DNA from: a virus | Virus record (IMG/VR): IMGVR_UViG_3300011113_000664 | Span: 106,057 to 170,056 of that record | DNA: 64,000 nt | Reading direction: 5' to 3' (one strand) | Part shown: piece after piece, positions 8,302-64,000 of the stretch | How positions within the stretch are numbered: the first letter of the stretch is position 1 | Layout: each line of letters starts with the position of its first letter | Position numbers and translations under genes: made by a program | The notes under the pieces: model-generated | Databases searched by the model: none | Seen by the model: the letters and a program-made list of their open reading frames with translations, nothing else | What the model was told of the DNA's origin: nothing

Positions 8302-9921
8302 TTATAAATTGCAGTAAAGACCATATGGTGTATAATCTATATTTGAATTTATTAATACACCCCAAGGATAACAATATTCAAATGTTACATTTAGAGAATC
8401 GTAAATAATTGAACCATATATATATTTTTGACCATCAGAAAGATAGCTATAATATGCATTTGGTTTAGGGTAATCAGTATTTAATGTTGAATTATATGTT
8501 AGATTATCCATATTTTTTAAAATTCTTCTAAGTCTTAAAGTTCCACCAGCTGGATTTTGAGTAGCATAATTTATAGTTGAATATATTTCTGTTGTTACTT
8601 CAACATATCTTATTTGAAAACCTGTACTTCCATTTTTCCAATTTTCAAATAAACGAACTGTTAGATGAAATGGGGAAAGTCGTTCAGTAAAAGTACTTGA
8701 ATTATATGATTGAGGTAAATTATTTGAATAAACAGAATCACTTTGTGTCACATCAGGTGCATAATCAGCAAAACTAGTTCCGGTTATTAATGGTGTTGGT
8801 ATAAATGTTGGTACTGTTTGTTTCACATAGAAAGGATTGAATCCTTGATTACTATATATGTATGTATCTTCTAAATTTCTTCCATCAAAATCAATAGGAA
8901 TCGAACCTGCGTTATAATCTGGAAAGGTGGCTACATCAGGGGTTTTAGAGTTAGCTTCGTTAGTACCATCATAATATAAATCTAAAGCAAATGAATTTTC
9001 AAGCACTTTATTATTATCTATGTTATAAAAATAATCTATGTCAGCTTGAGTCATATTTAAATCACTTCTTCTATTACCATTATCAACTTTAATAATTGCG
9101 TAACCAGCTTTTAAACTTTCAAGTTCAGCCATTGGTGAAGTATATGCATTGTATGGTACATCAGCAGGTAGGTTGTTAGAATCAAGTCTAGTTACCATAT
9201 ATAATTTTCTTGAACAATTAATATTATCAAATCTTTTGGTAAAACCTACTTGTCCTGAACTATCTTTAACTTCAACTATAAAATTAAATGCATCAGCCTT
9301 TCTTGGTAAAAAATCATCATCTAATAAACAATAAATAGGATTTGCTCCGGTATTATCTTTTATTATGCGTTTACAAGTCGCATTTAAAGTAATTTTTTTA
9401 TAAGCAACAGTTGTATTACCAACAGTAACAGGGTCAAAACTATATGATTCTGATGTTTCTGTTTTTAAAACTTGTGCTTGTTCAATTGTTGAGTTTGAAT
9501 TTGGAAAAGTTATTGTTTCTGTAATAATATTAAATGTGTATCCTTCAAATACACCATTTTTTGATACAGTAATTTCAAATTGTTCTTTATTTGGGTCTGT
9601 TGAACAAGTACCATTAACAAGGTATTCACCCTGAAATGGTGGAAAGTAAATTAAATTATTTTTTAATAATGCGCTTTCTGAAATATTTGGTGAACAAAAA
9701 TCATTATTACCTGTTATATCAGATATAAACCCACTTTTAAGAGTATTATATGTTGATGCAGAAATTAATTGAGATGCAATTTTATAATTTACATCTTCAT
9801 CATGTAAACTAAAATATGCCACTTGAAAATCTACAGTATCACCTGTAATAAATTTTTCTTTACCTTTTTGCGTTAGGTAAGCATGTATTTTTTTGATATC
9901 TGATTGTTGTATATATCCCAT
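8302..9921 (-). CDS. Tail-fibre-like paralogue A (shared N-terminal domain)
   Basis: 539 residues. The first ~100 residues form a domain shared with the next three genes: MGYIQQSDIKKIHAYLTQKG, then FSLHDEDVNYKIASQ, then KSGFISDITGNNDFC. The remainder is beta-rich, Thr/Asn-rich and unlike its neighbours, with pairs of cysteines around residues 105 and 180-200. The layout of a conserved N-terminus that docks to the virion plus a divergent distal part fits an adhesin or fibre family. No enzymatic motif is visible. Spaced 12 nt from the next paralogue, so one transcript is likely. Confidence 0.65.
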   Translation of the reverse strand: MGYIQQSDIKKIHAYLTQKGKEKFITGDTVDFQVAYFSLHDEDVNYKIASQLISASTYNTLKSGFISDITGNNDFCSPNISESALLKNNLIYFPPFQGEYLVNGTCSTDPNKEQFEITVSKNGVFEGYTFNIITETITFPNSNSTIEQAQVLKTETSESYSFDPVTVGNTTVAYKKITLNATCKRIIKDNTGANPIYCLLDDDFLPRKADAFNFIVEVKDSSGQVGFTKRFDNINCSRKLYMVTRLDSNNLPADVPYNAYTSPMAELESLKAGYAIIKVDNGNRRSDLNMTQADIDYFYNIDNNKVLENSFALDLYYDGTNEANSKTPDVATFPDYNAGSIPIDFDGRNLEDTYIYSNQGFNPFYVKQTVPTFIPTPLITGTSFADYAPDVTQSDSVYSNNLPQSYNSSTFTERLSPFHLTVRLFENWKNGSTGFQIRYVEVTTEIYSTINYATQNPAGGTLRLRRILKNMDNLTYNSTLNTDYPKPNAYYSYLSDGQKYIYGSIIYDSLNVTFEYCYPWGVLINSNIDYTPYGLYCNL

Positions 9922-9933
9922 ATTAATAATTTA

Positions 9934-11121
9934 TTATGTCCAATAATGGAATCTGTATTCTAAAGTTATATCGCTTGAATATGATGGGTTGATAAAATCG
10001 CTATAGACTCTAAATAGAATATTTCCTTGTGCAGAATTTGGTATTGTACTTGTAGAGCCTGGTGGTTTTGTTCTTGCTACATCTTTTCTTATTACTTTTA
10101 TTGGTACTGATTTTTTATATATTGTATTATTAGCCGTTGGAGTTACAGTACCATTTGTATTGTTATTAAATTCAAATCTTAAATTTGATGTAATTACTGT
10201 TTCTGAATACGGTGGGTTATCCACTCCAATAACTAAATCAATATAATTCCAAGCAGAATCGGTAAGATTACTTTTTTCTATTTTAAAAAATGCTGTATTT
10301 AATGTATTTTGTGTTATTTGTGAATTATCTGAATTTCTTATTGATACATCTATATAATTATAATAACTTGGGTCTAATGTAATTGTCTGTTTATTTCCAC
10401 CAACAACAGCTACACTAGCAGGATTAGTAGGAATAGTATTGTCAAAAGTATTTGTTTGACTAAATATTAAATTATTTTGTGGTTGATTTGGTAAACAGTC
10501 TAAATTAGTTTGCCCAATCAATTTTTCAGTTCCTTGACCATCTTTTACATAAACTTGATAATAAATTGGTATTACTTGTTGTGCATCTCTTGTAGAAAAT
10601 TCAAATGATTGACCTATTTGTTTTGGTGTAAAATAGTTATCAGGACCAAAATCTGTATAAAATTGATTTATTGTTACTTGTGGTGTACCATTTGGAAATA
10701 CAGGTGCAACTCTCCATGTATAAGGTCCACCTGAACCTCCTACAGGGTTTGTAACATTTATTATTACAACATAATCAAAAGTGGAACAGTTTTGAGAAAA
10801 ATTAGCACTCATTGGTGAATTACCTTCACCTTTAAGCATATTTTTACCAAATACAACCATTCCTTTATTACTTTTAATACAAACATCATTATCACCTGTT
10901 ATATCAGGTATAAAACCACTTTTTGGTGTGTTATATAATGTGTTTCCTGAAGAGTCAACCCCAATAATTTGTTTACTAATTTGATAATTTATATCCTCAT
11001 CATGTAAACTAAAATTTTTAATTTGAAAATCAATAACATCGCCATTAAAAATTCTTTCTCTTGCATATTCTGTAAAATATGCATAAAGTTGTACTGTTGA
11101 TGAACTTACTATAAATCCCAT
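9934..11121 (-). CDS. Tail-fibre-like paralogue B
   Basis: 395 residues. The N-terminal domain again reads LYAYFTEYARERIFNGD, FSLHDEDINYQISKQ and KSGFIPDITGDNDVC. The C-terminal two thirds is beta-rich and shows repeated patterns of the type seen in immunoglobulin-like or carbohydrate-binding modules, for example YNYIDVSIRNSDNSQITQN, but I cannot name the fold. It lacks the glycine-rich linker of paralogues C and D. Likely a receptor-binding or decoration protein; this is inferred from the family layout. Confidence 0.62.
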   Translation of the reverse strand: MGFIVSSSTVQLYAYFTEYARERIFNGDVIDFQIKNFSLHDEDINYQISKQIIGVDSSGNTLYNTPKSGFIPDITGDNDVCIKSNKGMVVFGKNMLKGEGNSPMSANFSQNCSTFDYVVIINVTNPVGGSGGPYTWRVAPVFPNGTPQVTINQFYTDFGPDNYFTPKQIGQSFEFSTRDAQQVIPIYYQVYVKDGQGTEKLIGQTNLDCLPNQPQNNLIFSQTNTFDNTIPTNPASVAVVGGNKQTITLDPSYYNYIDVSIRNSDNSQITQNTLNTAFFKIEKSNLTDSAWNYIDLVIGVDNPPYSETVITSNLRFEFNNNTNGTVTPTANNTIYKKSVPIKVIRKDVARTKPPGSTSTIPNSAQGNILFRVYSDFINPSYSSDITLEYRFHYWT

Positions 11122-11130
11122 TGTTTTATA

Positions 11131-12141
11131 TTAATTAGATATTGTCTTTTCAAGTTGCGCTCTATATGTATATGTATTTTTTTGAGTGTTTACTTGTATA
11201 TTTGAATTAGTTGAATTTAAAGTAAACGTAAACTCAAAATGTCTATTAATAGTGGTTTGGTCTAAATAACTTGGTTCAATATAAAGTACCATTTCTGTTA
11301 ATTTATTTATAACATCATTAGTTGTTACACTAGCAAAACTATAATTAGATATATAATTTGAAATATTACCAAGATTACTAGTTGGATTATAATCTTTAAA
11401 ACTAATTTTTATAAAATCTTCAAAAACTTTGTTTGGTTTTGTTCCGGTAAAAGTATATCCAATGGTACTTGGTGTTGAAATAGATAAATTGAATTTTACA
11501 GCATCTCTCTCTGCTTGAGTAATTGGTGTTGTATCACCGGGAGATGTTTTTAATACAATTGCAAATCTTGAATCTTGGTCACCAAGTGGTATTTGTGTGC
11601 CTGGGGTTGGACTATCACCATTTATTATGATGGTACAATTTTGACCTAACTTTAATTTATTTGTTGTGCTATCGATAGGGTCTACTTTTCTTCTATGTAT
11701 CCAATAATCATTGCGATTATCATAATTTGTTGCATATTCAAATTCCAATATTAATGGTTGAGTTCTTGGTGTTACAGACCCACCACCTGTTCCTCCTCCT
11801 GTTCCACCACCTGTTCCTGTTGATGAGGTTATAGAAGATAAAACAACAAGTGGTCCACCATAAATTAAATGACTATCATCATCTACGATATAGGCTTGTG
11901 ATACACTTTTAATACAAATGTCATTATCACCTGTTGCATCAGGTAAAAATCCATTTTTTAAATAATTATAATTTAAATTTTGGTCAATAATTGATGAAAT
12001 TTTATAATTTACATCATTATCATGTAGACTAAAAAATTTTATTTCAGAATGTGTTGCTGATGAATATAATAATTTTTTTCTACCATCTTGTGTAAGATAG
12101 CATTTTATTACTTGTGGTGTTGTATCTGTTATAAATCCCAT
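11131..12141 (-). CDS. Tail-fibre-like paralogue C with glycine-rich linker
   Basis: 336 residues. It carries the shared domain (IKCYLTQDGRKKLL, FFSLHDNDVNYKISS, LKNGFLPDATGDNDIC), followed by QAYIVDDDSHLIYGG, which it shares only with paralogue D. A flexible linker of repeated TGGG units (about residues 113-122) then joins it to a beta-rich C-terminal domain. The DNA for the linker is a short CCACCTGTTCCTCCTCCTG-type repeat near 11780-11820, a place where length variation by slippage or recombination would be expected. Confidence 0.62.
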   Translation of the reverse strand: MGFITDTTPQVIKCYLTQDGRKKLLYSSATHSEIKFFSLHDNDVNYKISSIIDQNLNYNYLKNGFLPDATGDNDICIKSVSQAYIVDDDSHLIYGGPLVVLSSITSSTGTGGGTGGGTGGGSVTPRTQPLILEFEYATNYDNRNDYWIHRRKVDPIDSTTNKLKLGQNCTIIINGDSPTPGTQIPLGDQDSRFAIVLKTSPGDTTPITQAERDAVKFNLSISTPSTIGYTFTGTKPNKVFEDFIKISFKDYNPTSNLGNISNYISNYSFASVTTNDVINKLTEMVLYIEPSYLDQTTINRHFEFTFTLNSTNSNIQVNTQKNTYTYRAQLEKTISN

Positions 12142-17647: not shown

Positions 17648-17658
17648 ATACGACAAAA
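17643..17658 (-). promoter_or_regulatory. Shared upstream motif TTTTGTCGTATTTTAA, copy 2
   Basis: The 16 bases are identical to 61125-61140, which precede another minus-strand glycosyltransferase. Both copies read in sense with the gene, about 17-20 nt before the start codon, and they contain CG, which is scarce here. Confidence 0.4.
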
Positions 17659-38689: not shown

Positions 38690-39643
38690 ATGAAAGTTTT
38701 TTATTATTGCCCCAATCTTAACCATCCTTCAGGTGGTATGGGTGTTTTATTTAAACAAGCTAAAATTCTTGCTGATAATGGTTATGATGTTACACTTCTT
38801 TATGAAGGAGATGCTGAATTTAACCCTACTTGGATGGAGTTTAGTATCTCACACATCCCCAAAGTCAAAATAAATGGTCTAGGAAGCCTCAGAATCGATT
38901 CAAATGACCTCTTGGTAATACCCGAAGGTTTTGGTAATTTGATTGATTCTACGAAGAATATGAAGTGCAAAAGGACAGTTCTTGCACAGAGTTGGATTTA
39001 CATTTACACCTCAATGCCACAGCCAAAATCTTGGAAAGAATCGGGTATTGAGAAAGTAATTAGTGTATCTCAAGGTATTTCAGAATACATACAAAAACAT
39101 ATGCCTGGGATTGAGATTCATCAATATAAACAATCTATAAGTCCAATATTTAAATCAAATTTGGATAAAGCATTTAGAGTTTGTTTTTCATCCTCAAGGT
39201 CAAATACGCAACAGATGAATACACACAATCTTATTAGTATTGTTAAATCATCAGATAAAAGATTAAGAAATACACAATTTATTGAATTAAAAGGTATGTC
39301 AAAACAACAATTTGCAAATGAACTTGCTGATTGTGCTTTTTGTCTTTATACAGATGAAATTGCAGGGTTTGGTACTCTTCCGTTAGAAGCAATGGCATGT
39401 AATACCCATGTAGTTGGATTCTCAAACATTGGTAATAAAGAATATGTAAGAGATAATAATGGATTTTGGTGTCAAAATGCGGATTATCATACACTTACTG
39501 ATAAACTTATTGAACAATTAAATACTTTTCTTGATGGTTATGAATATGATGGTTTATGTTTAAATGAAATTAATACTTCATCTGAATATAACGAAGAACA
39601 AGAAAAAAATCGTATTTTAGATATATTTGAAACTTATAAATAA
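38690..39643 (+). CDS. GT-B glycosyltransferase, first gene of glycan cluster
   Basis: 317 residues with a GT4-type layout: FYYCPNLNHPSGGMGVLFKQ at the N-terminus (Gly-rich acceptor loop) and FGTLPLEAMACNTHVVGFSN in the C-terminal donor domain, with the conserved Glu. It is a paralogue of the protein at 60034, which has AGFGTLPLEAMKSGAVIIGM at the same place. It probably attaches a sugar during synthesis of a glycan on host envelope or virion. It leads a run of tightly packed genes, with the inverted-repeat promoter just before it. Confidence 0.8.
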   Translation: MKVFYYCPNLNHPSGGMGVLFKQAKILADNGYDVTLLYEGDAEFNPTWMEFSISHIPKVKINGLGSLRIDSNDLLVIPEGFGNLIDSTKNMKCKRTVLAQSWIYIYTSMPQPKSWKESGIEKVISVSQGISEYIQKHMPGIEIHQYKQSISPIFKSNLDKAFRVCFSSSRSNTQQMNTHNLISIVKSSDKRLRNTQFIELKGMSKQQFANELADCAFCLYTDEIAGFGTLPLEAMACNTHVVGFSNIGNKEYVRDNNGFWCQNADYHTLTDKLIEQLNTFLDGYEYDGLCLNEINTSSEYNEEQEKNRILDIFETYK

Positions 39644-53676: not shown

Positions 53677-54460
53677 TTTAGTAATAGGCAACACATCACA
53701 ACTATCATACTATTTTCCACAAAATTATACAAAAATTTCATCAAGAAGTATTGATGAAAATATTTTCAATAAAAATTGGGATTCGATATATATAACATTT
53801 GCTAAACAAAATGTTTTTGATACTACGGATTCAAATTTTGTTGATATTAATACATATTATACACTAGATTTAATTAATAAACTCCTAGATTTATCTAATA
53901 AAATAGTTGTTTATACGAGTTGTGAAATGTTTAATAATCATTATGGACCAATTAGTATTGATACATTACCATCTTTTATACCTAAGAGTAATATAAACTA
54001 CACAAATTATATTCTTTCTAAATTTTTATTGACACAGTATATAAAAGAAAATAGAAAGAAGGATAAAAGATGGGAAAAAGTAATTATCATTCATCCATTC
54101 AATTTTGAATCAATTTATAAAAATAAATATTTTTTATTTGGTAAAATAACTAATTCAATAGTTAATAAAGAGATTATTGAAGTTGGTAATGTAAATTTTT
54201 ATAGAGATATTCTTCACGCATCAAGAATGGTTGAAGAATCAATAAAATCAGAAACTGATTTGGTAATTGGTTCTGGAAAATTATTAAATTTAAAATTTAT
54301 AATAAAAGAAATATATTCGTATTTTAATATGGATTATAATTATTTTGTTAAAGAATCCATAGGTAATAATAATAAAGTAAATTTTTATTATTCTTCTAAA
54401 GTATTAGAATATAATTTTATAGAAGATATGATTTTAGATATAAAAAAATTAATTAAATGA
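53666..54460 (+). CDS. Degenerate SDR-type sugar epimerase/reductase
   Basis: 264 residues from the ATG at 53666 (MENNLVIGNTSQLSYYF). It has the outline of extended SDR sugar enzymes: VVYTSCEMFNNHYGP (catalytic Ser/Thr region), NYTNYILSKFLLTQYI (Y-x-x-x-K variant) and FYRDILHASRMVEE ('RD..Ha.D.v'). The NAD-binding GxxGxxG loop is changed to IGNTSQLS. It stands beside gmd, where a GDP-fucose synthase would be expected, but it lacks enough features to say so. It may be a diverged or inactive relative. Confidence 0.5.
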   Translation: MENNLVIGNTSQLSYYFPQNYTKISSRSIDENIFNKNWDSIYITFAKQNVFDTTDSNFVDINTYYTLDLINKLLDLSNKIVVYTSCEMFNNHYGPISIDTLPSFIPKSNINYTNYILSKFLLTQYIKENRKKDKRWEKVIIIHPFNFESIYKNKYFLFGKITNSIVNKEIIEVGNVNFYRDILHASRMVEESIKSETDLVIGSGKLLNLKFIIKEIYSYFNMDYNYFVKESIGNNNKVNFYYSSKVLEYNFIEDMILDIKKLIK

Positions 54461-55431: not shown

Positions 55432-55439
55432 TATATTTG
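55432..55439 (+). promoter_or_regulatory. TAnnTTTG box 4 nt before the split nuclease gene
   Basis: TATATTTG then AAGT then the ATG at 55444. A TTG lies 21 nt upstream (55408-55410), near the place of a -33 element. Identical in layout to the box at 61146, which lies upstream of the gene region carrying the second half of the split protein. Confidence 0.45.
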
Positions 55440-55443
55440 AAGT

Positions 55444-56781
55444 ATGATTGATAAAATTGCACATCTCGCTGATGTCCATTTCCAAAATAATTTGGATAGA
55501 TTAGCAGAACAAAAACATATTTCAAATCTGACAATTGAATCACTTAAAAAAGATAACCCTGATTTAATTGTAATTGCAGGAGACTTATTTCATAATTATG
55601 TAAAACCATTCAATGAAATCAATGTTATTGCAGGTGATTTCTTAAATTCTTGTGCTATGATAGCACCTGTTGTGATTATTGATGGTAATCACGATATAAT
55701 GAAATCAAATCTCAATAGAATGTCATCTATTAAGATGCTTGTTGAGATTATTAACAATCCTAATATACACTACTATGACTCAACAGGTTTTTTTGAACTT
55801 GATAATATTGTTTTCGCTACTTGGTATCACCCTGATAGAAAATCCCCTTGGCTTGAATTCAATGAAGAAGAGCGCAATAATAATAAGTATTATATTGACC
55901 TTTTCCATGACCCAATTAATGGATGCTATCTCCAAAATGGACAGCTTCATACCGATAGCAATCTTGTTTCTCTTGCTGATTTTAAAGGTGATATTGTAAT
56001 GGCAGGAGATATACATCTCCAACAATCATATCAAAAAAATGGAAAAGAGTTTTTTGCTTACCCATCGTCATTATATTGTACCAATTATGGCGAAGGTGAT
56101 AATGCTTTTCATGGTTATCTTTTATGGGATATTAAAACAAAGACTTTTGAAAAGAAAGAAATAATATCAGATTATAAATACTTTAATATTTATATAAATG
56201 AAGATTATGATTATGAAAATCTTAATATTGAACTTGAAAATGTTGGAAAATATAATCATCTTAAAATTCATTGGATGGACCAATACTCAACATTTACCAA
56301 TGAGAATAAACAAAAGATAAAAAAGTATTTAGAGTCTAACTATGGTGAATTTGTCACCATTAAATTTGACAAATCAAAGATTTTAAATAAATCTTTAAAG
56401 ATTAAAGAATTTGATGAAACCATTGATTTAAATAATGATGATAGTGTAAGACAAGAATTTATAAATTTTTTGAAAGCTAAAAATCATCAAGAAGATTTTA
56501 TAAAAGATGTTTTAGCACTTGATAATGAAATATCATCTTTAATTGAAAAGGATGTAGAGAATCAATTCTATGATTGGAAAGTAAAAAAGATTGTTCTTGA
56601 TAACTTTAAATCACATGGTGAAAGATATGAACTTGATTTAACAGATAAGAATGGAATTATTCAAATCTATGGAGAAAATCAAGTTGGAAAATGTGTTCAT
56701 CCTGAAACAAAAATCAACATTAGATTCAATAAAGAAGAAATAATTGCAAAACTTGGATATTTACCTGAATTTTTAAAATAA
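55444..56781 (+). CDS. SbcD/gp47-like nuclease fused to start of SbcC/gp46 ATPase, ending in N-intein
   Basis: 445 residues. Residues 1-~340 are an Mre11/SbcD-type phosphoesterase: HLADVHF (D10, H12), IAGDLFHNY, DGNHD at ~80 and MAGDIHLQQ at ~185. From ~378 the ATPase head of SbcC/Rad50/gp46 begins: KKIVLDNFKSHGERYELDL, then IIQIYGENQVGK ending at residue 416, the first seven residues of Walker A. Residue 417 is Cys, and the last 29 residues are an N-intein (CVHPETKINIRF block A). The stop overlaps the next start (TAATG). Splicing with the protein starting at 61705 would rebuild a gp47-gp46 fusion that resects DNA ends for recombination. Alone it lacks a working ATPase. Confidence 0.9.
   Translation: MIDKIAHLADVHFQNNLDRLAEQKHISNLTIESLKKDNPDLIVIAGDLFHNYVKPFNEINVIAGDFLNSCAMIAPVVIIDGNHDIMKSNLNRMSSIKMLVEIINNPNIHYYDSTGFFELDNIVFATWYHPDRKSPWLEFNEEERNNNKYYIDLFHDPINGCYLQNGQLHTDSNLVSLADFKGDIVMAGDIHLQQSYQKNGKEFFAYPSSLYCTNYGEGDNAFHGYLLWDIKTKTFEKKEIISDYKYFNIYINEDYDYENLNIELENVGKYNHLKIHWMDQYSTFTNENKQKIKKYLESNYGEFVTIKFDKSKILNKSLKIKEFDETIDLNNDDSVRQEFINFLKAKNHQEDFIKDVLALDNEISSLIEKDVENQFYDWKVKKIVLDNFKSHGERYELDLTDKNGIIQIYGENQVGKCVHPETKINIRFNKEEIIAKLGYLPEFLK
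56692..56778 (+). other. Split intein, N-terminal part (29 residues)
   Basis: Starts with Cys directly after the P-loop Lys: CVHPETKINIRFNKEEIIAK, then nine more residues and stop. C-x-x-P-x-T-K-I is intein block A. The N-part is far shorter than the ~100 residues of usual split inteins such as DnaE, and is like the atypical phage split inteins with ~25-residue N-parts. Splice junction: ...GENQVGK | C. Confidence 0.9.
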
Positions 56782-57887
56782 TGGACAAAACCGTATTACT
56801 TACAATCATTTTTGGTGGCGCATTAGTTTACTTCAAACAATTCTTTATTTTTGTTTTAACAACTTTAAGAGATAGTGTTATCTGTTCAATGAAAATTGAA
56901 GAAAGTTCTTTTTTCTTTTATTCCTTTCAAAACTTTATTTTAACCGAAAAACAGAACTCAGTTAAAAATCTTTATTATAGAACATTTTTCGATGGTTGGA
57001 TTGCAGGAGAAGATAATGCTAATGTAAATATGTTTTATAACTCAGGATTTGTTTACATCAAATTTAAAGGTAATAGATTCTTAGTTTTAAAAAATGCTGA
57101 AAACATTCAAAATAGTATCACACCCTATAAAAATAGTAAACATATGTTTATGATTTTTTGTAGAAATAAGTCTGTTTTAAAAGAATTATTAGATTATGTC
57201 GATGTAACATATGGTAATAAATACATAAAATACTTTTATAATTTTAATGGTGAAATAAAATGTGCAGGTAGAGTAATAAATAAAACTTTTGATAATATTT
57301 ATCTTGATAATAATATATCTGAGTTTCTTAAAAATGATTTAGATAGATTTAACTCAACAAAAGAAAAGTATGATAAGTATGGAATTAGATATAAACGAAC
57401 ATATCTTTTTTATGGTCCTCCAGGAACAGGTAAATCATCACTGTCTTTAGGTATATCTAATTATACTAAAAGAGATATATTATCAATTAACTTATCTAAA
57501 GATATGACAGATGCAAATCTTATTGCTTTGATTTCTGATAGACCAAAAAAATCAATTGTTTTATTTGAAGATATTGATTGTTTATTGGAGGATATTAATA
57601 GAAAAAAAGAAGAAAAGAAAGAATCTGAAATTAAAATTTCACTTTCTTGTATTTTAAACGTATTAGATGGTATATATACACCTAATGATGTTATATTCAT
57701 AATAACCACTAATGAACTTGATAAAATTGATGATGCTATTAAAAGAAAAGGTAGAACCGATGTTTTAATGGAGATTAAAAAACCAAGTGAAAATTTAATT
57801 GAAGACTTAAAAATAAAATTTAATATAGATAACAATAAAACTTTTGATAATATATCAGAACTCCACGAAGAATTACTAAATTTATGA
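56781..57887 (+). CDS. BCS1-like AAA ATPase
   Basis: 368 residues. An N-terminal membrane segment (LLTIIFGGALVYFKQFFIF) is followed by a BCS1-N-like beta region (residues ~35-180), then an AAA core with Walker A LFYGPPGTGKSSLSL at ~208-222, Walker B SIVLFEDIDCLLED at ~255 and TTNELDKIDDAIKRKGRTD (sensor and arginine finger region). In mitochondria BCS1 translocates folded proteins; bacterial and phage relatives have unknown roles. It starts inside the stop codon of the split nuclease gene, so the two are co-translated. First of seven genes between the intein halves. Confidence 0.8.
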   Translation: MDKTVLLTIIFGGALVYFKQFFIFVLTTLRDSVICSMKIEESSFFFYSFQNFILTEKQNSVKNLYYRTFFDGWIAGEDNANVNMFYNSGFVYIKFKGNRFLVLKNAENIQNSITPYKNSKHMFMIFCRNKSVLKELLDYVDVTYGNKYIKYFYNFNGEIKCAGRVINKTFDNIYLDNNISEFLKNDLDRFNSTKEKYDKYGIRYKRTYLFYGPPGTGKSSLSLGISNYTKRDILSINLSKDMTDANLIALISDRPKKSIVLFEDIDCLLEDINRKKEEKKESEIKISLSCILNVLDGIYTPNDVIFIITTNELDKIDDAIKRKGRTDVLMEIKKPSENLIEDLKIKFNIDNNKTFDNISELHEELLNL

Positions 57888-58126
57888 CAACAAACATAAC
57901 AAACGAAAACGGACTCATTAAAGCAACCTATGATTCATCCAACATTGCATCATCAACCTATGATACCACAAACTATACATTACATATTACATTTGTAAAA
58001 GGAAACTTAGTGTATAAGTATGATAATGTAAATCCTGAAGATTACAATCAACTACAAAGTGCTGAATCCACAGGAAAAGCATTCATTGACTCTATTAAAA
58101 ATAAATATACAGGAGAAAAAGTTTAA
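57884..58126 (+). CDS. KTSC-domain protein
   Basis: 80 residues. SSNIASSTYDTTNYTLHITF, GNLVYKYDNVNPEDYNQL and STGKAFIDSIKNKYTGEKV reproduce the KTSC pattern: a short Ser-x-x-Y-D start, an F-x-x-G strand, Y-x-Y, and a closing 'S-x-G-k-f...I-k-x-k-Y'. KTSC domains are small, found alone or beside lysyl-tRNA synthetase and phage genes, with possible nucleic-acid-binding function. It overlaps the AAA gene by 4 nt and shares its stop (TTAA) with the convergent gp53-like gene. Confidence 0.82.
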   Translation: MTTNITNENGLIKATYDSSNIASSTYDTTNYTLHITFVKGNLVYKYDNVNPEDYNQLQSAESTGKAFIDSIKNKYTGEKV

Positions 58127-58425
58127 AAACTTTTGCTCACCTCTATTCTATCTCTTATAGCATTTATAAGATATTGCTTTGGCATTGGTACTCTTATAAT
58201 ATTTCCAACCTCAATATCACCTTCAGACAAATATTGAGGATTTGCAAGCAATATAAATCTACCAAATGCAGCATTATTATAATAAGTGTATGCTAACCTA
58301 TCTAAGCGATTACCAACATTCCATTCAACATAAACATCATTTGGTGATTCTTGTATTTTAAAGAACGGTAATGGTGCAAACGTGTTATCTGTTATGAAAT
58401 CGGAGTAAATATTAAATTCATCCAT
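58123..58425 (-). CDS. Baseplate wedge gp53-like LysM protein
   Basis: 100 residues. YVEWNVGNRLDRLAYTYYNN, then FGRFILLANPQY and EVGNIIRVPMP form a LysM-type unit of the sort present in T4 gp53 and in tail 'protein X'. Gp53 joins neighbouring baseplate wedges. This structural gene has a late-type palindromic motif upstream and lies on the opposite strand from the two flanking plus-strand genes, so it was probably inserted here by rearrangement. Gp53 in T4 is larger (~196), so this is a minimal version. Confidence 0.7.
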   Translation of the reverse strand: MDEFNIYSDFITDNTFAPLPFFKIQESPNDVYVEWNVGNRLDRLAYTYYNNAAFGRFILLANPQYLSEGDIEVGNIIRVPMPKQYLINAIRDRIEVSKSF

Positions 58426-58431
58426 TATAAT

Positions 58432-58448
58432 CTATTTACTTTAAATAG
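58432..58448 (-). promoter_or_regulatory. Palindromic CTATTTA-type motif before gp53-like gene
   Basis: On the minus strand: CTATTTAAAGTAAATAG, two CTATTTA halves around three bases, nearly the form of the 15397 palindrome. It ends about 6 nt before the ATG at 58425 and overlaps the end of the sigma gene. This variant is less certain than the CTATTTATA copies. Confidence 0.35.
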
Positions 58449-59238
58449 ATAAATAATCATCCTTTAATTTTTTATAAACCAATTTAAAAGATTTAAGAGA
58501 TTTTTTAATATCCTGTTTTTTATATTTGTTATTTGTGATTTCACAAATCATATCAATAACCCTATTATTGATAAAGAATAAACTCATTTTTGATTCGGTT
58601 GGTTCATTAATGTATTTAAAATTTTCAATGATTGAAATTAATGAATAACCAACATTAACATCAATTTCTTTTAAAGTTTTGTCTGATTCTATTTTGTTTT
58701 TAATTTCAGTACATAGACCAAAAAATACGATTTTTATATAATTATTATCACTATCTTCATCAAGATTTTCATTTATCTGATAAGATAAGGATAAATCCCT
58801 TTCAAATAAATCTATATTTTCCACAACATCATCACTACTTTTATCTTGATTAAAGTTTCTTTCTGAAATATGTTTTGCTTCATTTTTACAAATTGTAGAG
58901 AAGTAGGAAAATGCCTTTGATTTAACACCCTTTTTATTAATCTTTTCAGGATTAAACATGTGAAGATTATTGAAGGCAAAAATCAAAAGGTCATTTTCCA
59001 TATCCTCTATTGTGTAACGCTTTGAAAAATAAAGAAAATAGGATTTAGCAGTAAAATAAGCAAGTTTTTTAAGAGCCTTATGGATTTCCTTTTCATAAAT
59101 TTGATTTTTTTCATCCAATGAGTAGTCAGGGCTATTATATCTAATAATAGCCTTTTCTGTTGCATCGGTAAAATATTCCTTTACAGACCCCGGCTTTGCT
59201 TTCCTGCCTCGCCTACCTTTTTTTACTTCCTCAGACAT
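58441..59238 (-). CDS. Late sigma factor, gp55-like
   Basis: 265 residues, a little longer than T4 gp55 (185). A basic start (KKGRRGRKAKPGSVKEYF) precedes a sigma region 2 of about residues 50-130: KLAYFTAKSYFLYFSKRYTI, EDMENDLLIFAFNNLHMFNP and KAFSYFSTICKNEAKHISER. There is no clear region 4, as in gp55. Gp55 directs host RNA polymerase to the T4 late promoter TATAAATA. The CTATTTATA motifs in this window are candidates for its target. The gene is on the minus strand between the two intein halves, next to a glycosyltransferase. Confidence 0.72.
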   Translation of the reverse strand: MSEEVKKGRRGRKAKPGSVKEYFTDATEKAIIRYNSPDYSLDEKNQIYEKEIHKALKKLAYFTAKSYFLYFSKRYTIEDMENDLLIFAFNNLHMFNPEKINKKGVKSKAFSYFSTICKNEAKHISERNFNQDKSSDDVVENIDLFERDLSLSYQINENLDEDSDNNYIKIVFFGLCTEIKNKIESDKTLKEIDVNVGYSLISIIENFKYINEPTESKMSLFFINNRVIDMICEITNNKYKKQDIKKSLKSFKLVYKKLKDDYLSI

Positions 59239-59240
59239 TA

Positions 59241-60044
59241 TTAAATAATCGGTGCTTCTTGCTTCTTTGCATATGCTTTATTTCTATCATGAGGCCAAAC
59301 ATATTCTTTTTTAGCAAGATTCCACCAAAAAGTAACCTCATCTGCTTCCATCTTTGTTTGTTCATTTAAGTAAGAATTTTCTCTACCGAATTTTCTTAAA
59401 TAACCAATTTTAGGAATGGTATAGGTAATACCATCAATATTGGTAAATCGCATCAAAAATTCATAAACAAAACTAAGTTTGATGGATGGTTTTAAAGCAC
59501 CCGATTCTTCAAATTTTTCTTTTCTAATTGCTGCACCGCTAATTGAAACAAGATTATAATTCATCAATGTTTCCATAGTCAAATAACCATGTCTATCATT
59601 TGTTAAATCCTTTGCCCAATTAACTTCATTGATATAACGATGAATCTTTTTATCTAATGTGGTATCCGCAATAATTGGAAGAAACATATCCACATTTGAC
59701 ATTTCTTCCATATGATTTGAAAGATTTTCAAAATAGAACGGAGTTAATTCATCATCAAAATCCAAAACCATAAAGAATGAAGTCTTAACTTCTTCTACAG
59801 CTTTATTAATTTGAGATTGGATATTATCAGATGATTCATCATTAATAACAAATCTTACCTTTCTTTCAGTTTTAATTTCTTTTTTAGTTTCTGTCGTTGT
59901 AACAATTACTACCTCTTTAGGTGCATAACCATTTTTTTGATTAAAGACAGATTCTAATGCTTCTGAAAATAATTGTGTTTCCGCTTCATTTTCAAATTTA
60001 TGAATTGGAATAATTACGGTTAAATCTAAAATATTATTTTTCAT
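59241..60044 (-). CDS. GT2-type glycosyltransferase
   Basis: 267 residues. LTVIIPIHKFENEAETQLFS, VVIVTTTETKKEI, RFVINDESSDNIQSQINKAV and FFMVLDFDDELTPFYFENLS give the GT-A fold with a 'D-F-D-D' metal site. It overlaps its partner at 60034 by 11 nt, so the two are made together as a separate glycan unit away from the main cluster. Donor unknown. Confidence 0.8.
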   Translation of the reverse strand: MKNNILDLTVIIPIHKFENEAETQLFSEALESVFNQKNGYAPKEVVIVTTTETKKEIKTERKVRFVINDESSDNIQSQINKAVEEVKTSFFMVLDFDDELTPFYFENLSNHMEEMSNVDMFLPIIADTTLDKKIHRYINEVNWAKDLTNDRHGYLTMETLMNYNLVSISGAAIRKEKFEESGALKPSIKLSFVYEFLMRFTNIDGITYTIPKIGYLRKFGRENSYLNEQTKMEADEVTFWWNLAKKEYVWPHDRNKAYAKKQEAPII

Positions 60045-61107
60045 TTTCTATTACTTGTTTAATTAAATTTTTTCTATTTTCAAAAATGTTTGAAAAAGCT
60101 TGAATTAGTGTTTTTTCATGATTTTCAACTGTATATTCAGATGAAATTTTTTCCATGTTTTGATAAACAACTTCAGGTACATTATCAACCATCCATTCTT
60201 TAACAACAACACCAAGCTGTTCAGCAAGGATTTCAAGTGAATTTGACCAAACTGCTGTGTTATCTACCTTTAAATAATCTTTTTCAAGTTCAGGAATCAT
60301 ACCAATAATTACAGCACCGCTTTTCATTGCTTCCAAAGGAAGTGTACCAAATCCTGCATCTTTATCAAGCCAAAGCAAAACAGGAATTTCACCCATTTTT
60401 TCAGCAAGTTGCTCTCTTGTAATAAAAGGTTCAGCACCTTGCATTCTTTCAAACAATACCCAAGAAAGTTCAGGATATTTCATAAAGAAAATTTTAGATA
60501 ATCTTTTAATATCAGACTCACTTCTTGAAAAATACATAATAATTGGCTTTTTAATTTTCTTTGGTTTAAAATAATCAGGAATACCAATTTTATATGTTTC
60601 AATATTGTAATTTACCCTTGAATTTCTTTGAATAAATTCTTTTAGTTGTTCAGAAGTTGTAAGAATGGTATTAAAACCCCATGCTGCCCAAGTATGATTC
60701 GGTGGAAGTGAATCAAGCATATATGTTTGTGATTGACAAAGAACAATTCTTTCGCATTGAATTTTAGCATCAAAAATCTGATGCATAACATTCACAAAGA
60801 ATTCAGGTACAATCAATACATCAGTTGGTGCTACATTAATGTTGTCTTTCTTCGGTGAAAGATGTGGAACATTTCTCAAATCTTCTGATAAATAAGAAGG
60901 AATTTTGAATTCAGCTTCTTTTTCATCCTCCCCTGTAATAAGGAAAGCATTGTAATTATTTTTTCTTAAAAAATAACAAATATTATATATCTCTTCTACA
61001 GCCATTGAATATACATTCTCAGGAATAGAAGGAACATATAAATAAATGTTGAAATTATTTGCTTCAACATTTGATAACAGTTCTTTTAATTTTTCTACTT
61101 TATCCAT
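60034..61107 (-). CDS. GT-B glycosyltransferase, paralogue of 38690 gene
   Basis: 357 residues. NIYLYVPSIPENVYSMAVEE and DVLIVPEFFVNVMHQIFDA resemble the protein at 38690 (DLLVIPEGFGN), and AGFGTLPLEAMKSGAVIIGM is the shared donor-domain motif. CQSQTYMLDSLPPN matches AQSWIYIYTSMPQP there. The gene is read from a TTTTGTCGTATTTTAA motif identical to that before the glycosyltransferase at 16222. It could modify the phage DNA, virion or host glycans; unknown. Confidence 0.75.
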   Translation of the reverse strand: MDKVEKLKELLSNVEANNFNIYLYVPSIPENVYSMAVEEIYNICYFLRKNNYNAFLITGEDEKEAEFKIPSYLSEDLRNVPHLSPKKDNINVAPTDVLIVPEFFVNVMHQIFDAKIQCERIVLCQSQTYMLDSLPPNHTWAAWGFNTILTTSEQLKEFIQRNSRVNYNIETYKIGIPDYFKPKKIKKPIIMYFSRSESDIKRLSKIFFMKYPELSWVLFERMQGAEPFITREQLAEKMGEIPVLLWLDKDAGFGTLPLEAMKSGAVIIGMIPELEKDYLKVDNTAVWSNSLEILAEQLGVVVKEWMVDNVPEVVYQNMEKISSEYTVENHEKTLIQAFSNIFENRKNLIKQVIENEK

Positions 61108-61124
61108 TTTTTATTGATTTTTAA

Positions 61125-61140
61125 TTAAAATACGACAAAA
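61125..61140 (-). promoter_or_regulatory. Shared upstream motif TTTTGTCGTATTTTAA, copy 3
   Basis: All 16 bases are identical to 17643-17658, in the same orientation relative to the gene starting at 61107 and at similar distance. The divergent plus-strand gene at 61158 has a TAnnTTTG box at 61146-61153, so this 50-nt gap probably holds two back-to-back promoters. Confidence 0.4.
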
Positions 61141-61145
61141 TATTT

Positions 61146-61153
61146 TATATTTG
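61146..61153 (+). promoter_or_regulatory. TAnnTTTG box 4 nt before start codon
   Basis: TATATTTG then GGTT then the ATG at 61158. Same layout as at 55432. It would drive the HAD-like gene and, by overlap, the C-intein/ATPase gene. Confidence 0.45.
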
Positions 61154-61157
61154 GGTT

Positions 61158-61724
61158 ATGAAAACTTTTGCAATAGAGGTAAACGGAATTTTAAGAGATT
61201 TTATAAAAAAATTTGAACAATATTATAAGATTGAGTTTGCAAACAGGGATATACAATACCCTATTGACCCTTTTAATCCTTTGCTTTCATTTCACTTTGA
61301 AGATAATGAATTAGAGGATTTCTTATTTCAATACTCATATGAGTTATTTGCAAAATCAACTCTACCATCAAAGGAAATCATTGCTCAAATAAATCAGATA
61401 TATCCTGAATTGTCTGATAATCAGTATAAAGTGATAATTATATCAAGAGAAGGTGTTAAATTCAGAAATTTAACTGCATTCTATATATCAAACTTTTCAG
61501 CAGGGTTTTATTTTGATGAGATGAGATTTTTTAATAAGTTTGATGAATATGTAAATCAAAATTTTGATTATATCTTAACAGCTAATCCAAACTTATCAAA
61601 ACTATCTTTTGATAATACAAAAGTTATTCTTTTTGACCCTGAAAAGAAATACGAAAATAAAACCACAGTAAGCAATATTATTGAAATTTTCCCTATTCTT
61701 GAAAATGACAGAGAAGAAAATTAA
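61158..61724 (+). CDS. Degenerate HAD-like protein
   Basis: 188 residues. FAIEVNGILRDF stands at the HAD motif I place but with Glu-x-Asn for the catalytic Asp-x-Asp. YKVIIISREGVKFRN fits motif II ('S-R-E') and KVILFDPEKKYENK fits the loop before motif IV. With the nucleophile changed it may have lost phosphatase activity. It ends 20 nt inside the next gene, so translation of the C-intein gene may depend on it. Confidence 0.5.
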   Translation: MKTFAIEVNGILRDFIKKFEQYYKIEFANRDIQYPIDPFNPLLSFHFEDNELEDFLFQYSYELFAKSTLPSKEIIAQINQIYPELSDNQYKVIIISREGVKFRNLTAFYISNFSAGFYFDEMRFFNKFDEYVNQNFDYILTANPNLSKLSFDNTKVILFDPEKKYENKTTVSNIIEIFPILENDREEN

Positions 61725-62091
61725 AATTGGTGATTTACAGTTTTTAAAAAATTTACTTGATAAATTAAATATTGAAGTTGAAACACCATATGGATATAAT
61801 AAAATATTAGCATATGATGTTACATCTAAAAATTGTAGATATTGGACATTAGAAACCGAAACAGGAAAAAGGATTACAACATCCATAGACCACTTATTTA
61901 AAAATCATTTAGGTCAATTCGTTCCATTAAAAAATATAATGGAAGATACAATCAATAATAAAATTTTGAGTATTGATAGATTAGAATCTATTAGATTTAT
62001 AGAAACAGACCCAAGACAAGTAATAGATTTAGTAGACATTCAAGTTGAGGGTTCAGGTCAATACTATGCAAATAACATACTTGTTCATAAT
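61705..62091 (+). other. Split intein, C-terminal part (129 residues)
   Basis: Block B is GKRITTSIDHLF with H63 and Ser in the usual Thr place; block F is DIQVEGSGQYYANNILVHN, ending in His128-Asn129. The next residue, Ser130, is the +1 nucleophile and restores GENQVGK-S. Total intein length with the N-part is 158 residues, with no room for a homing endonuclease. The C-part starts at its own ATG, 20 nt inside the HAD-like gene. Confidence 0.9.
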
Positions 62092-64000
62092 TCAAATATT
62101 TTAAATTCTATTACATATGGTCTTTATGGTACTACCTTTGATACTCTCAAAAAAGAGAAGAACAGAGATAATAAATTTATCAACAACAATAACAAAAAAG
62201 ATTATTCAGAAGTTCAGTTAATTATTGAAATTAATGGGGAAGATTATGTAGTAAGAAGAAGAACTGAAAGAAAATGGGATAAAACACATACAGAAATAAC
62301 CTCTTGTTCAACCAAAACTTACTTTAATAAGTTAGATTCAAATGGTGAAATAATTGATGAAAATAATCTTTCCGAACAAGATAAAGCAAAAACCCAAAAA
62401 CTTATTGAGCAATCAATTGGGGATTTTGATGAATTTATCACAAAATCCTTAATTAATGCTGATACTCTTAATGATATTCTTACAACCGACCATGCTAAAT
62501 TCTTAGACTCAATTCTTAGAGATACAGGTCTTGATATATTTGAAAAGAAACTTGAAGTATTTAAAGCATATAAGAAAAACGAATATAAAAAAGAAAGTCT
62601 TTTAAATATTTCTGTTGATAGATACAATCAATTAATTGAGGATGCAAAAAATTATATTGAAAACTATAAAACAGAAATAAAAGATAGAAAAGAAAAAATA
62701 AAAGTTTTAGATGAAAGAATTAAAAATGGTGAAACACATGTTGAAAATACAATTAAAACTTTAAAACCAATTGATTCTCAATTATCTAAACTTGATATTA
62801 ATCAAGTTAAAAATGATATAAATAAACTTATTAATGATAAGGATGAAAAGATTAGGTCACAAAAGGACCTTTTAAAACAAATTGAAGAACTCAATAAGTT
62901 TGTATTGGATGAGGATTTATATAATTCATTAAAAGAAAAATCAAGTTCATTTAATGGTTGGTTAATTTCTAAAAATGAACAAATAAAAGATTTAAATAAA
63001 GAAATCAACAATATTACAAATGATATTTCAGTAATAAACGGTTATATACATAAAGAAAATCTTGCAGTATCAAAAATAGATTCTCAAATTGATAACGATA
63101 GATTAGGACTAGAGAGGCAAATTGATTTAATCGAAAGAGATATTTCTTTATTAGAAGATAGCAAAGTTTGTCCAAGTTGCAATCGTTTAAAGGATGAAGA
63201 TGCGATTGCATCAATTAGAGTAAAGGTTGATAAATTAAAAGGAGATATTCAAAAAATTAAAGATGACATTAAAAAAGAAACCTTTAAGAAGAAATATGAA
63301 TTAGATATTAAATCAATTAATAAAAATATAAGTAAATATAAAGAAGATATTAAAGATAAAGAATTAATGATTGAAAGTAAAAAATCATTAATAAAAGCAT
63401 TTGATGATGATATTAAAAAAGAAAGTGTAACAATTACAAAGGTAAAAGAAAAGATTACAAAGATTGAATTAATCATTAAAGAGATTGAAAAAAGAAATAG
63501 ATTCAAACAGGAATATGATAATATTCCAATGTATATTGAAAATATTGAATTGAAAATCAATCAAAAGAATGATTTACTTTCAAAGTATGATATTAATATA
63601 GTTTACATCCAAGAAAATAATAAAATTCAATCAAAGATTGATACATATAAAGCAAAAGTTAATGAGTTTAAAAATGAAAAAGAAACATTAAAAACTCAAA
63701 CCAATGATTTTGAATATAAAATTGAATTTGCTAAGAATGAAATTCAAAATTATAAAGATACAATTACAAAGTATTTAGAGCAGCAAAGACAAGAATTAAT
63801 CAGAGAGGAATATCAAAATTGTATTCATAGAGAAGGTATTCCAAGTACTCTTCTAAAGAAACTAATCCCAAAAGTAAATATGTATCTTCAAGGATATACT
63901 GAAGATATTGACTTTAATGTTTTCTTTGATAATGAACTTTTCTTTCAAATGTCAAAGAAAGACACTCCTGAAATCATTCAGAATGTTATTTCAGGTTCAG
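61705..64000 (+). CDS. C-intein plus SbcC/gp46-like ATPase, cut by window end
   Basis: Opens with ATG at 61705, open to the window end (765 codons seen). Residues 1-129 are the C-part of an intein; residue 130 is Ser, then NILNSITYGLYGTTFDTLKK, the helix after the P-loop in SbcC/Rad50/gp46. A Gln-loop-like region (EFITKSLINADTLNDILTT) follows, then two long coiled coils around CPSC (C489, C492; bases 63169-63180), the zinc-hook place. The last residues (PEIIQNVISGS) lead into the ABC signature motif. The protein has no Walker A of its own: GENQVGK is supplied by the protein at 55444. This is the gene for the ATPase of DNA-end resection. Confidence 0.92.
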   Translation, partial: MTEKKIKIGDLQFLKNLLDKLNIEVETPYGYNKILAYDVTSKNCRYWTLETETGKRITTSIDHLFKNHLGQFVPLKNIMEDTINNKILSIDRLESIRFIETDPRQVIDLVDIQVEGSGQYYANNILVHNSNILNSITYGLYGTTFDTLKKEKNRDNKFINNNNKKDYSEVQLIIEINGEDYVVRRRTERKWDKTHTEITSCSTKTYFNKLDSNGEIIDENNLSEQDKAKTQKLIEQSIGDFDEFITKSLINADTLNDILTTDHAKFLDSILRDTGLDIFEKKLEVFKAYKKNEYKKESLLNISVDRYNQLIEDAKNYIENYKTEIKDRKEKIKVLDERIKNGETHVENTIKTLKPIDSQLSKLDINQVKNDINKLINDKDEKIRSQKDLLKQIEELNKFVLDEDLYNSLKEKSSSFNGWLISKNEQIKDLNKEINNITNDISVINGYIHKENLAVSKIDSQIDNDRLGLERQIDLIERDISLLEDSKVCPSCNRLKDEDAIASIRVKVDKLKGDIQKIKDDIKKETFKKKYELDIKSINKNISKYKEDIKDKELMIESKKSLIKAFDDDIKKESVTITKVKEKITKIELIIKEIEKRNRFKQEYDNIPMYIENIELKINQKNDLLSKYDINIVYIQENNKIQSKIDTYKAKVNEFKNEKETLKTQTNDFEYKIEFAKNEIQNYKDTITKYLEQQRQELIREEYQNCIHREGIPSTLLKKLIPKVNMYLQGYTEDIDFNVFFDNELFFQMSKKDTPEIIQNVISGS

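Follow-up and report, generated by a model that had tools for sequence, protein, structure and literature searches.

A predicted short-N split intein in a phage Mre11-Rad50 gene whose two parts are separated by seven genes

Introduction

The gp41-1 intein of a phage helicase works with Cys1 and Ser+1 chemistry and is split late, into a long N-terminal (N) and a short C-terminal (C) part. In cyanobacteria, the halves of the split DnaE intein reside in separate, distant genes of a bacterial chromosome, and the split is of the canonical type. Fractured phage genes, broken through a split intein, were reportedly described by Dassa et al. in 2009. Here we analyze a putative case of this kind in a stretch of viral DNA of 64,000 nucleotides (nt), hereafter the window (IMG/VR record IMGVR_UViG_3300011113_000664, positions 106,057 to 170,056). 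The window forms the final 64 kb of a record of 170,056 base pairs (bp), and no phage record with near DNA identity to it was found. A fused Mre11-Rad50 (gp47-gp46) gene is broken here at the lysine of the Rad50 Walker A motif by what is predicted to be a naturally split intein, and seven genes lie between its two parts.

Short N fragments are known from AceL-TerL (25 amino acids, aa) and GOS-TerL (37 aa), as stated in the available part of PMC11766414. According to excerpts of PMC6892783, the split intein of MIJ3 PolB is interrupted by an HNH endonuclease gene. Mimivirus, a Bacillus phage and others are named as carriers of Mre11-Rad50 (SbcD-SbcC) fusions in the accessible sections of PMC3175470. 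The inteins named in the portions at hand of PMC7412058, PMC10448857 and PMC3653736 belong to terminases and ribonucleotide reductases of phages, and gp46 is not among their hosts; nor does the listed open-licence literature contain a title on Rad50, SbcC or gp46 as host of a split intein, although both words, 'intein' and 'Rad50', occur in PMC13402864 and PMC11276520.

Results

Structure of the split gene

The N part of the gene occupies positions 55444-56781 (445 aa, with the stop codon TAA at 56779-56781). Its extein (55444..56691, plus strand) comprises the complete Mre11/gp47 nuclease (Pfam Metallophos, expectation value (E) 3.4e-12) and the start of Rad50/gp46 as far as the lysine of Walker A (GENQVGK; alignment A1); residues 1-418 of the N part match megaphage LR756501 at 37% identity. 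The extein is followed by an intein N fragment of 29 aa (56692..56778, plus strand), whose Cys1 is C417 of the N part. The C part starts with an ATG at 61705 and continues past the end of the record. It consists of an intein C fragment of 129 aa (61705..62091, plus strand) and the remainder of Rad50/gp46 (62092..64000, plus strand; PHROG SbcC-like, E 2.7e-18), the extein restarting with Ser at 62092 (SNILNS...). The break falls between residues K and S, and removal of the intein restores GENQVGK-SN, in agreement with the GxNxxGK[ST] of relatives. Both domains of the fusion are identified, and they are contiguous in relatives; no second gp47 or gp46 was found in the record itself.

The original prediction had proposed two split-intein halves with seven genes on both strands in between, and our analysis bears this out in coordinates, order and strands: the N-part stop and the C-part start are 4,923 bp apart, and the gap holds exactly seven complete genes as open reading frames (ORFs), four of them on the minus strand. 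The broken gene, described there as a core replication gene, is instead the Mre11-Rad50 pair of recombination and repair.

Characteristics of the intein

Inteins are commonly described by named blocks, of which block B carries [T/S]xxH and block G ends in HN, followed by the +1 nucleophile. At the present locus, intein position 1 is Cys in all seven aligned rows, and CVHPxTKINI is kept throughout the seven rows of alignment A1. The C fragment contains a block-B-like SxxH and ends in VHN, followed by Ser+1; its S59, H62, H127, N128 and S129 are invariant in six rows. When a structure model of the C fragment, derived from six sequences, was compared with the PDB by Foldseek, inteins filled the top ranks, with gp41-1 first (E 8.3e-6) and VidaL second (E 1.3e-5). 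A profile of the C fragment likewise retrieves gp41-1 from the PDB (E 2.2e-7), and Pfam Intein_splicing matches it under the cut-off (E 0.0011). The 29 aa of the N fragment fit the roughly 25-40 aa of atypical (short-N) split inteins. Taken together, Cys1, the block motifs and the Hint fold point to a naturally split intein with a short N fragment (the 'atypical' type) that is predicted to splice in trans.

Both intein fragments, the exteins and the gap genes are under purifying selection. Median ratios of nonsynonymous to synonymous substitution rates (dN/dS) amount to 0.127 in the intein N fragment, where the maximum is 0.513, and to 0.207 in the intein C fragment, compared with 0.083 in the N extein, 0.152 in the C extein and 0.08-0.22 in the gap genes.

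Promoter-like motifs and transcription units

The promoter-like element TATATTTG is located 4 nt 5' of the gp47 ATG (55432..55439, plus strand), where it is present in six of seven sequences. A second copy (61146..61153, plus strand) stands 4 nt 5' of the ATG of the 188-aa gene, which overlaps the C-half start. This copy is found in 5/6 sequences, its distance to the ATG being 4 nt in three and 15-16 nt in two, while L007 carries TATATTTA in its place. Upstream of seven other starts tested the element was not found, and the other genes between the halves are without it. The arrangement TATATTTG-N4-ATG, a pattern spotted after the fact, occurs exactly twice in the window, at the two halves, against a mean of 0.34 and a maximum of 2 in 100 second-order Markov simulations. 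The halves thus appear to head separate transcription units, each with its own TATATTTG as presumed promoter. With so short a spacing to the ATG, the messages may be leaderless. We take TATATTTG to fit the Bacteroidota -7 element; no paper with this string is among the literature matches listed. Named relatives are phages of Tenacibaculum and Chryseobacterium for gp47 and of Flavobacterium for the sigma-like protein; on account of the element and of these phage relatives, we infer a Bacteroidota host.

Other motifs precede other genes. CTATTTA is found upstream of the gp53-like gene and a TCGTATTTTA-like motif upstream of the GT-B-like gene, each in 6/6 sequences. Within the window, TCGTATTTTA is located at 17653 (minus strand), 39610, 48349, 54317 and 61135 (minus strand), i.e. 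at 5 sites, where a second-order Markov model predicts 0.2. An ATG follows each of them within 25 nt (that at 54317 is intragenic), and TCGTATTTTA is a candidate phage promoter class. CTATTTATAATAAA, a candidate late promoter, occurs at 2415, 8291 (minus strand) and 15398 (3 sites vs 0.02 expected), each time just 5' of a gene start. The T4-type late promoter TATAAATA was also considered; it is not enriched.

Relatives carrying the split

When the N part was used to scan viral contigs, eight related ones emerged (89-95% protein identity), in all of which the same intein fragment closes the N part. Six of the eight reach the far (C) junction, with identical gene order; L003 and L004 being identical, they amount to five distinct sequences, and the remaining two contigs end within the AAA gene. 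The KTSC, gp53-like, sigma-like, family 2 glycosyltransferase (GT2), GT-B-like and 188-aa genes keep their order and strands in 6/6 contigs that reach this junction. In L003/L004, an extra FkbM methyltransferase gene (Pfam, E 2.6e-19) lies directly 3' of the N-half stop; L008 has no AAA gene at this stop, and the KTSC gene adjoins directly. From N stop to C start, the gap spans 3,999 to 5,754 bp across the sequences. The arrangement is therefore real and conserved, and it is unusual in host gene, split type and gap size, with a dynamic gap content whose genes are gained and lost at the N-half stop codon. Further downstream in the split clade, a 2,163-aa protein is encoded 3' of gp46 (L044:12238-18729).

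Unsplit relatives and the order of events

The extein halves were compared by tblastn with 86 loci (L002-L087), of which 16 belong to the split group and 70 do not. In 63 of these 70, the N extein runs straight into the C extein, several contigs being counted twice. Four more, from records of phages of Tenacibaculum, Chryseobacterium and Microcystis, are single-coding-sequence fusions with a C-part match too weak for exact placing; as to the last three, L041 and L048 are interrupted elsewhere, and L086 shows no match. The comparison with related phages that had been suggested at the outset thus reveals widespread unsplit gp47-gp46 fusions, including the sister lineage L047. The N-extein tree was computed from 39 hand-chosen rows, leaving out L009 (partial), L004 (the same as L003), the interrupted L041 and L048, L086 for want of a match, and numerous other loci without the split. 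All split rows form one clade (support 100/100), and the unsplit, intein-less L047 is its sister (100/98). Since the split clade is single and its sister lacks both split and intein, the gene was most simply one piece and free of the intein before this clade, and intein gain and split are both placed most simply on its stem. No contiguous intein at the site is among the matches listed for the N-part, C-part and intein queries against viral contigs (pattern-limited scans, with one-by-one examination of the contigs before L095); the N-part scan of genome contigs found no relative.

The genes now located in the gap have a different neighborhood in unsplit records. The sigma-like and gp53-like profiles match 5 and 10 of 21 unsplit records, respectively, and the profile of the 188-aa protein gives weak matches in two. 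In all five records with both, the sigma and gp53 genes are 10.7-12.7 kb apart from each other and 104-256 kb away from the fusion along the record (by hand arithmetic, about 77 kb at the closest if the records are circular). Their remoteness from the fusion favors a rearrangement beside gp47/46 over a local insertion. Late-type genes would accordingly have moved next to gp47/46 in the split lineage, and a breakpoint in or beside the intein is the simplest account. The order of events, which the original prediction had left undecided, can be narrowed to intein gain and split on the stem of the clade, with rearrangement favored.

Interruptions of another kind are seen in two of the relatives. 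In the distant relative L041 (9953-14303), a homing-endonuclease-like ORF of 305 aa (10667-11584; PHROG homing endonuclease, E 2.5e-13, and a weak Pfam Vsr match) disrupts the fused gene at the GHIH motif of Mre11, and the locus is without intein. L048 is interrupted by about 320 bp (8990-9308) at nearly the same Mre11 site, possibly by an intron or a decayed insertion. A group I intron was considered for both interruptions, and Rfam gave no match.

Genes in the gap

The identities originally proposed for the gap genes hold for the most part. The first gene, whose start codon overlaps the N-half stop, encodes a BCS1-like AAA ATPase (56781..57887, plus strand; Pfam AAA, E 3.5e-19; PDB BCS1 profile, E 1.3e-26) that aligns to mitochondrial BCS1 through the N-terminal region as well. 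It is followed by a gene for a KTSC-domain protein (57884..58126, plus strand; Pfam, E 3.8e-15). On the minus strand are genes for a gp53-like baseplate wedge protein (58123..58425; PHROG 7145, E 6.3e-8), a sigma-factor-like protein (58441..59238), a GT2 (59241..60044; Pfam, E 5.1e-9) and, as the first gene of this unit, a group-1-like glycosyltransferase (GT-B-like; 60034..61107; PDB glycosyltransferase 8xsg, E 1.8e-6). The assignment as a gp55-like sigma factor is weak: NCBIfam sigma70-ECF matches under its cut-off (E 0.011), and among the Foldseek matches of a low-confidence model (mean predicted local distance difference test (pLDDT) 56.6) are many sigma factors, none below E 0.29. The 188-aa protein (61158..61724, plus strand) is conserved in 6/6 sequences and has no family or structure match in Pfam, PHROGs, NCBIfam or PDB, so that its former description as HAD-like finds no support in these searches.

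The earlier statement that no homing endonuclease is visible in the gap holds: none of the seven proteins matches a nuclease family in Pfam, PHROGs or NCBIfam. In the other gap sequences, the ORFs listed are the same genes plus FkbM, the small extra ORFs of L003 standing outside the search.

Glycosylation genes are found outside the gap, too. A paralogue of the GT-B-like gene is located at 38690-39643, and just 5' of gp47 a long plus-strand run (33199-55425), variable among relatives, includes glycosyltransferase, FkbM-like and sugar-epimerase-like genes.

Discussion

Our analyses suggest that, in this group of uncultured phages, a split intein probably rejoins the two protein halves after their synthesis. 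Two mRNAs would be made, each from its own TATATTTG promoter: one would encode Mre11, the start of Rad50 and 29 intein residues, the other 129 intein residues and the remaining Rad50. The intein parts would then associate and splice in trans by means of Cys1, the terminal His-Asn and Ser+1, and the product would be a continuous Mre11-Rad50 whose ATP site works. Late and glycosylation genes may have come to lie between the halves through a rearrangement on the clade's stem, followed by later gains and losses at the N-half stop; because the halves need no adjacency, the stretch between them could become ordinary phage genome. We consider this account as a whole quite likely, i.e. the split short-N intein, the trans-splicing, the two TATATTTG promoters, the gap as ordinary genome and the rearrangement on the stem.

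Some observations weigh against this account. The mean pLDDT of the intein structure model is 63.6. The N fragment is so short that it cannot yield a family match by itself, and when it is joined to the C fragment, the PDB match is still confined to the C part and nothing is added. Pfam Intein_splicing scores 19.3 bits compared with a cut-off of 35.8, and none of eight records exceeds it, further weak intein-like matches being seen in the same comparison; as this model spans a whole intein, which here comes in two pieces, we regard the missed cut-off as a limit of detection rather than as a defining feature. As to the promoters, TATATTTG is missing before gp47 in L003, and the plain 8-mer is not significantly enriched over the window (20 sites vs 14.7 expected), so that the pattern rests on placement and conservation. 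Lastly, the intein C fragment evolves somewhat faster than the exteins.

The last point would fit a dead intein whose host halves act as non-covalent subunits. Against this, no aligned row departs from Cys1, SxxH, the terminal VHN or Ser+1, purifying selection acts on both fragments and the cut passes through the Walker A motif; we regard a dead intein as very unlikely. An assembly artefact that fused unrelated contigs might be suspected, given that the 170-kb record of the window ends within the C part. Such a mis-assembly, which the original prediction had named as what would overturn it, is refuted by the relatives, which share the junctions at about 76-92% nucleotide identity (the N junction in eight of eight, from seven metagenome prefixes, and the C junction in the six of six that reach it), and its probability is negligible. 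How the split began is a different matter. A homing endonuclease could have fractured the intein and later been lost, with the gap being refilled, a scenario that differs from ours only in this first step. It is a known route for phage split inteins, as in MIJ3 PolB with its HNH gene in the gap (excerpts of PMC6892783), and the broken L041 gene marks the fused gene as a target of such elements. However, L041 has no intein, and no nuclease family match was obtained in the searched gap proteins of the window or among the genes listed for other gaps; we therefore hold this origin to be possible, though not the one to be expected.

Two further proposals assign a function to the arrangement. The gap genes could be a module kept with gp47/46, e.g. 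one that ties late transcription to recombination, and the order of six of them, from KTSC to the 188-aa gene, is indeed kept in all six sequences. Yet the AAA gene is lost in one sequence and FkbM gained in another, the units are preceded by three motif classes, and sigma and gp53 are remote from the fusion in unsplit relatives; such a module seems improbable to us. The split could also be a control point: because the N half holds the whole Mre11 nuclease, the phage could run ATP-independent Mre11 first, and the Rad50 ATPase would be switched on once the second unit is expressed and the Walker A site spliced. This, too, we judge unlikely.

Under the trans-splicing account with a stem rearrangement, the ATP site of a DNA-repair machine harbors a split intein with a short N fragment. 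By the same account, a gene divided by such an element may stay co-regulated via matching promoters while unrelated, even antisense, genes fill the middle. As one small clade displays the split and the turnover of the gap, together with a sister that is unsplit and free of the intein, the origin of split inteins becomes open to comparative study. The intein pair is, moreover, a candidate peptide-tagging tool.

Among solved inteins, gp41-1 is closest to the C fragment by profile and by fold, and it shares the Cys1 and Ser+1 chemistry; its late split differs from the 29 + 129 residues found here, as does its host gene. The short N fragment is shared with AceL-TerL, GOS-TerL and VidaL, the latter being the second-best fold match. 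TerL split inteins are located in terminase genes, whereas the host here is Mre11-Rad50 and the gap measures about 5 kb. MIJ3 PolB is likewise a phage gene broken through a split intein, but the present gap contains seven non-nuclease genes, four of them on the other strand. The Mre11-Rad50 fusions of PMC3175470 have the same fused architecture, and the word 'intein' occurs 0 times in the main text of that paper. The mechanism is thus likely that of known split inteins, and what is new is the host gene, the type of split and the size of the gap.

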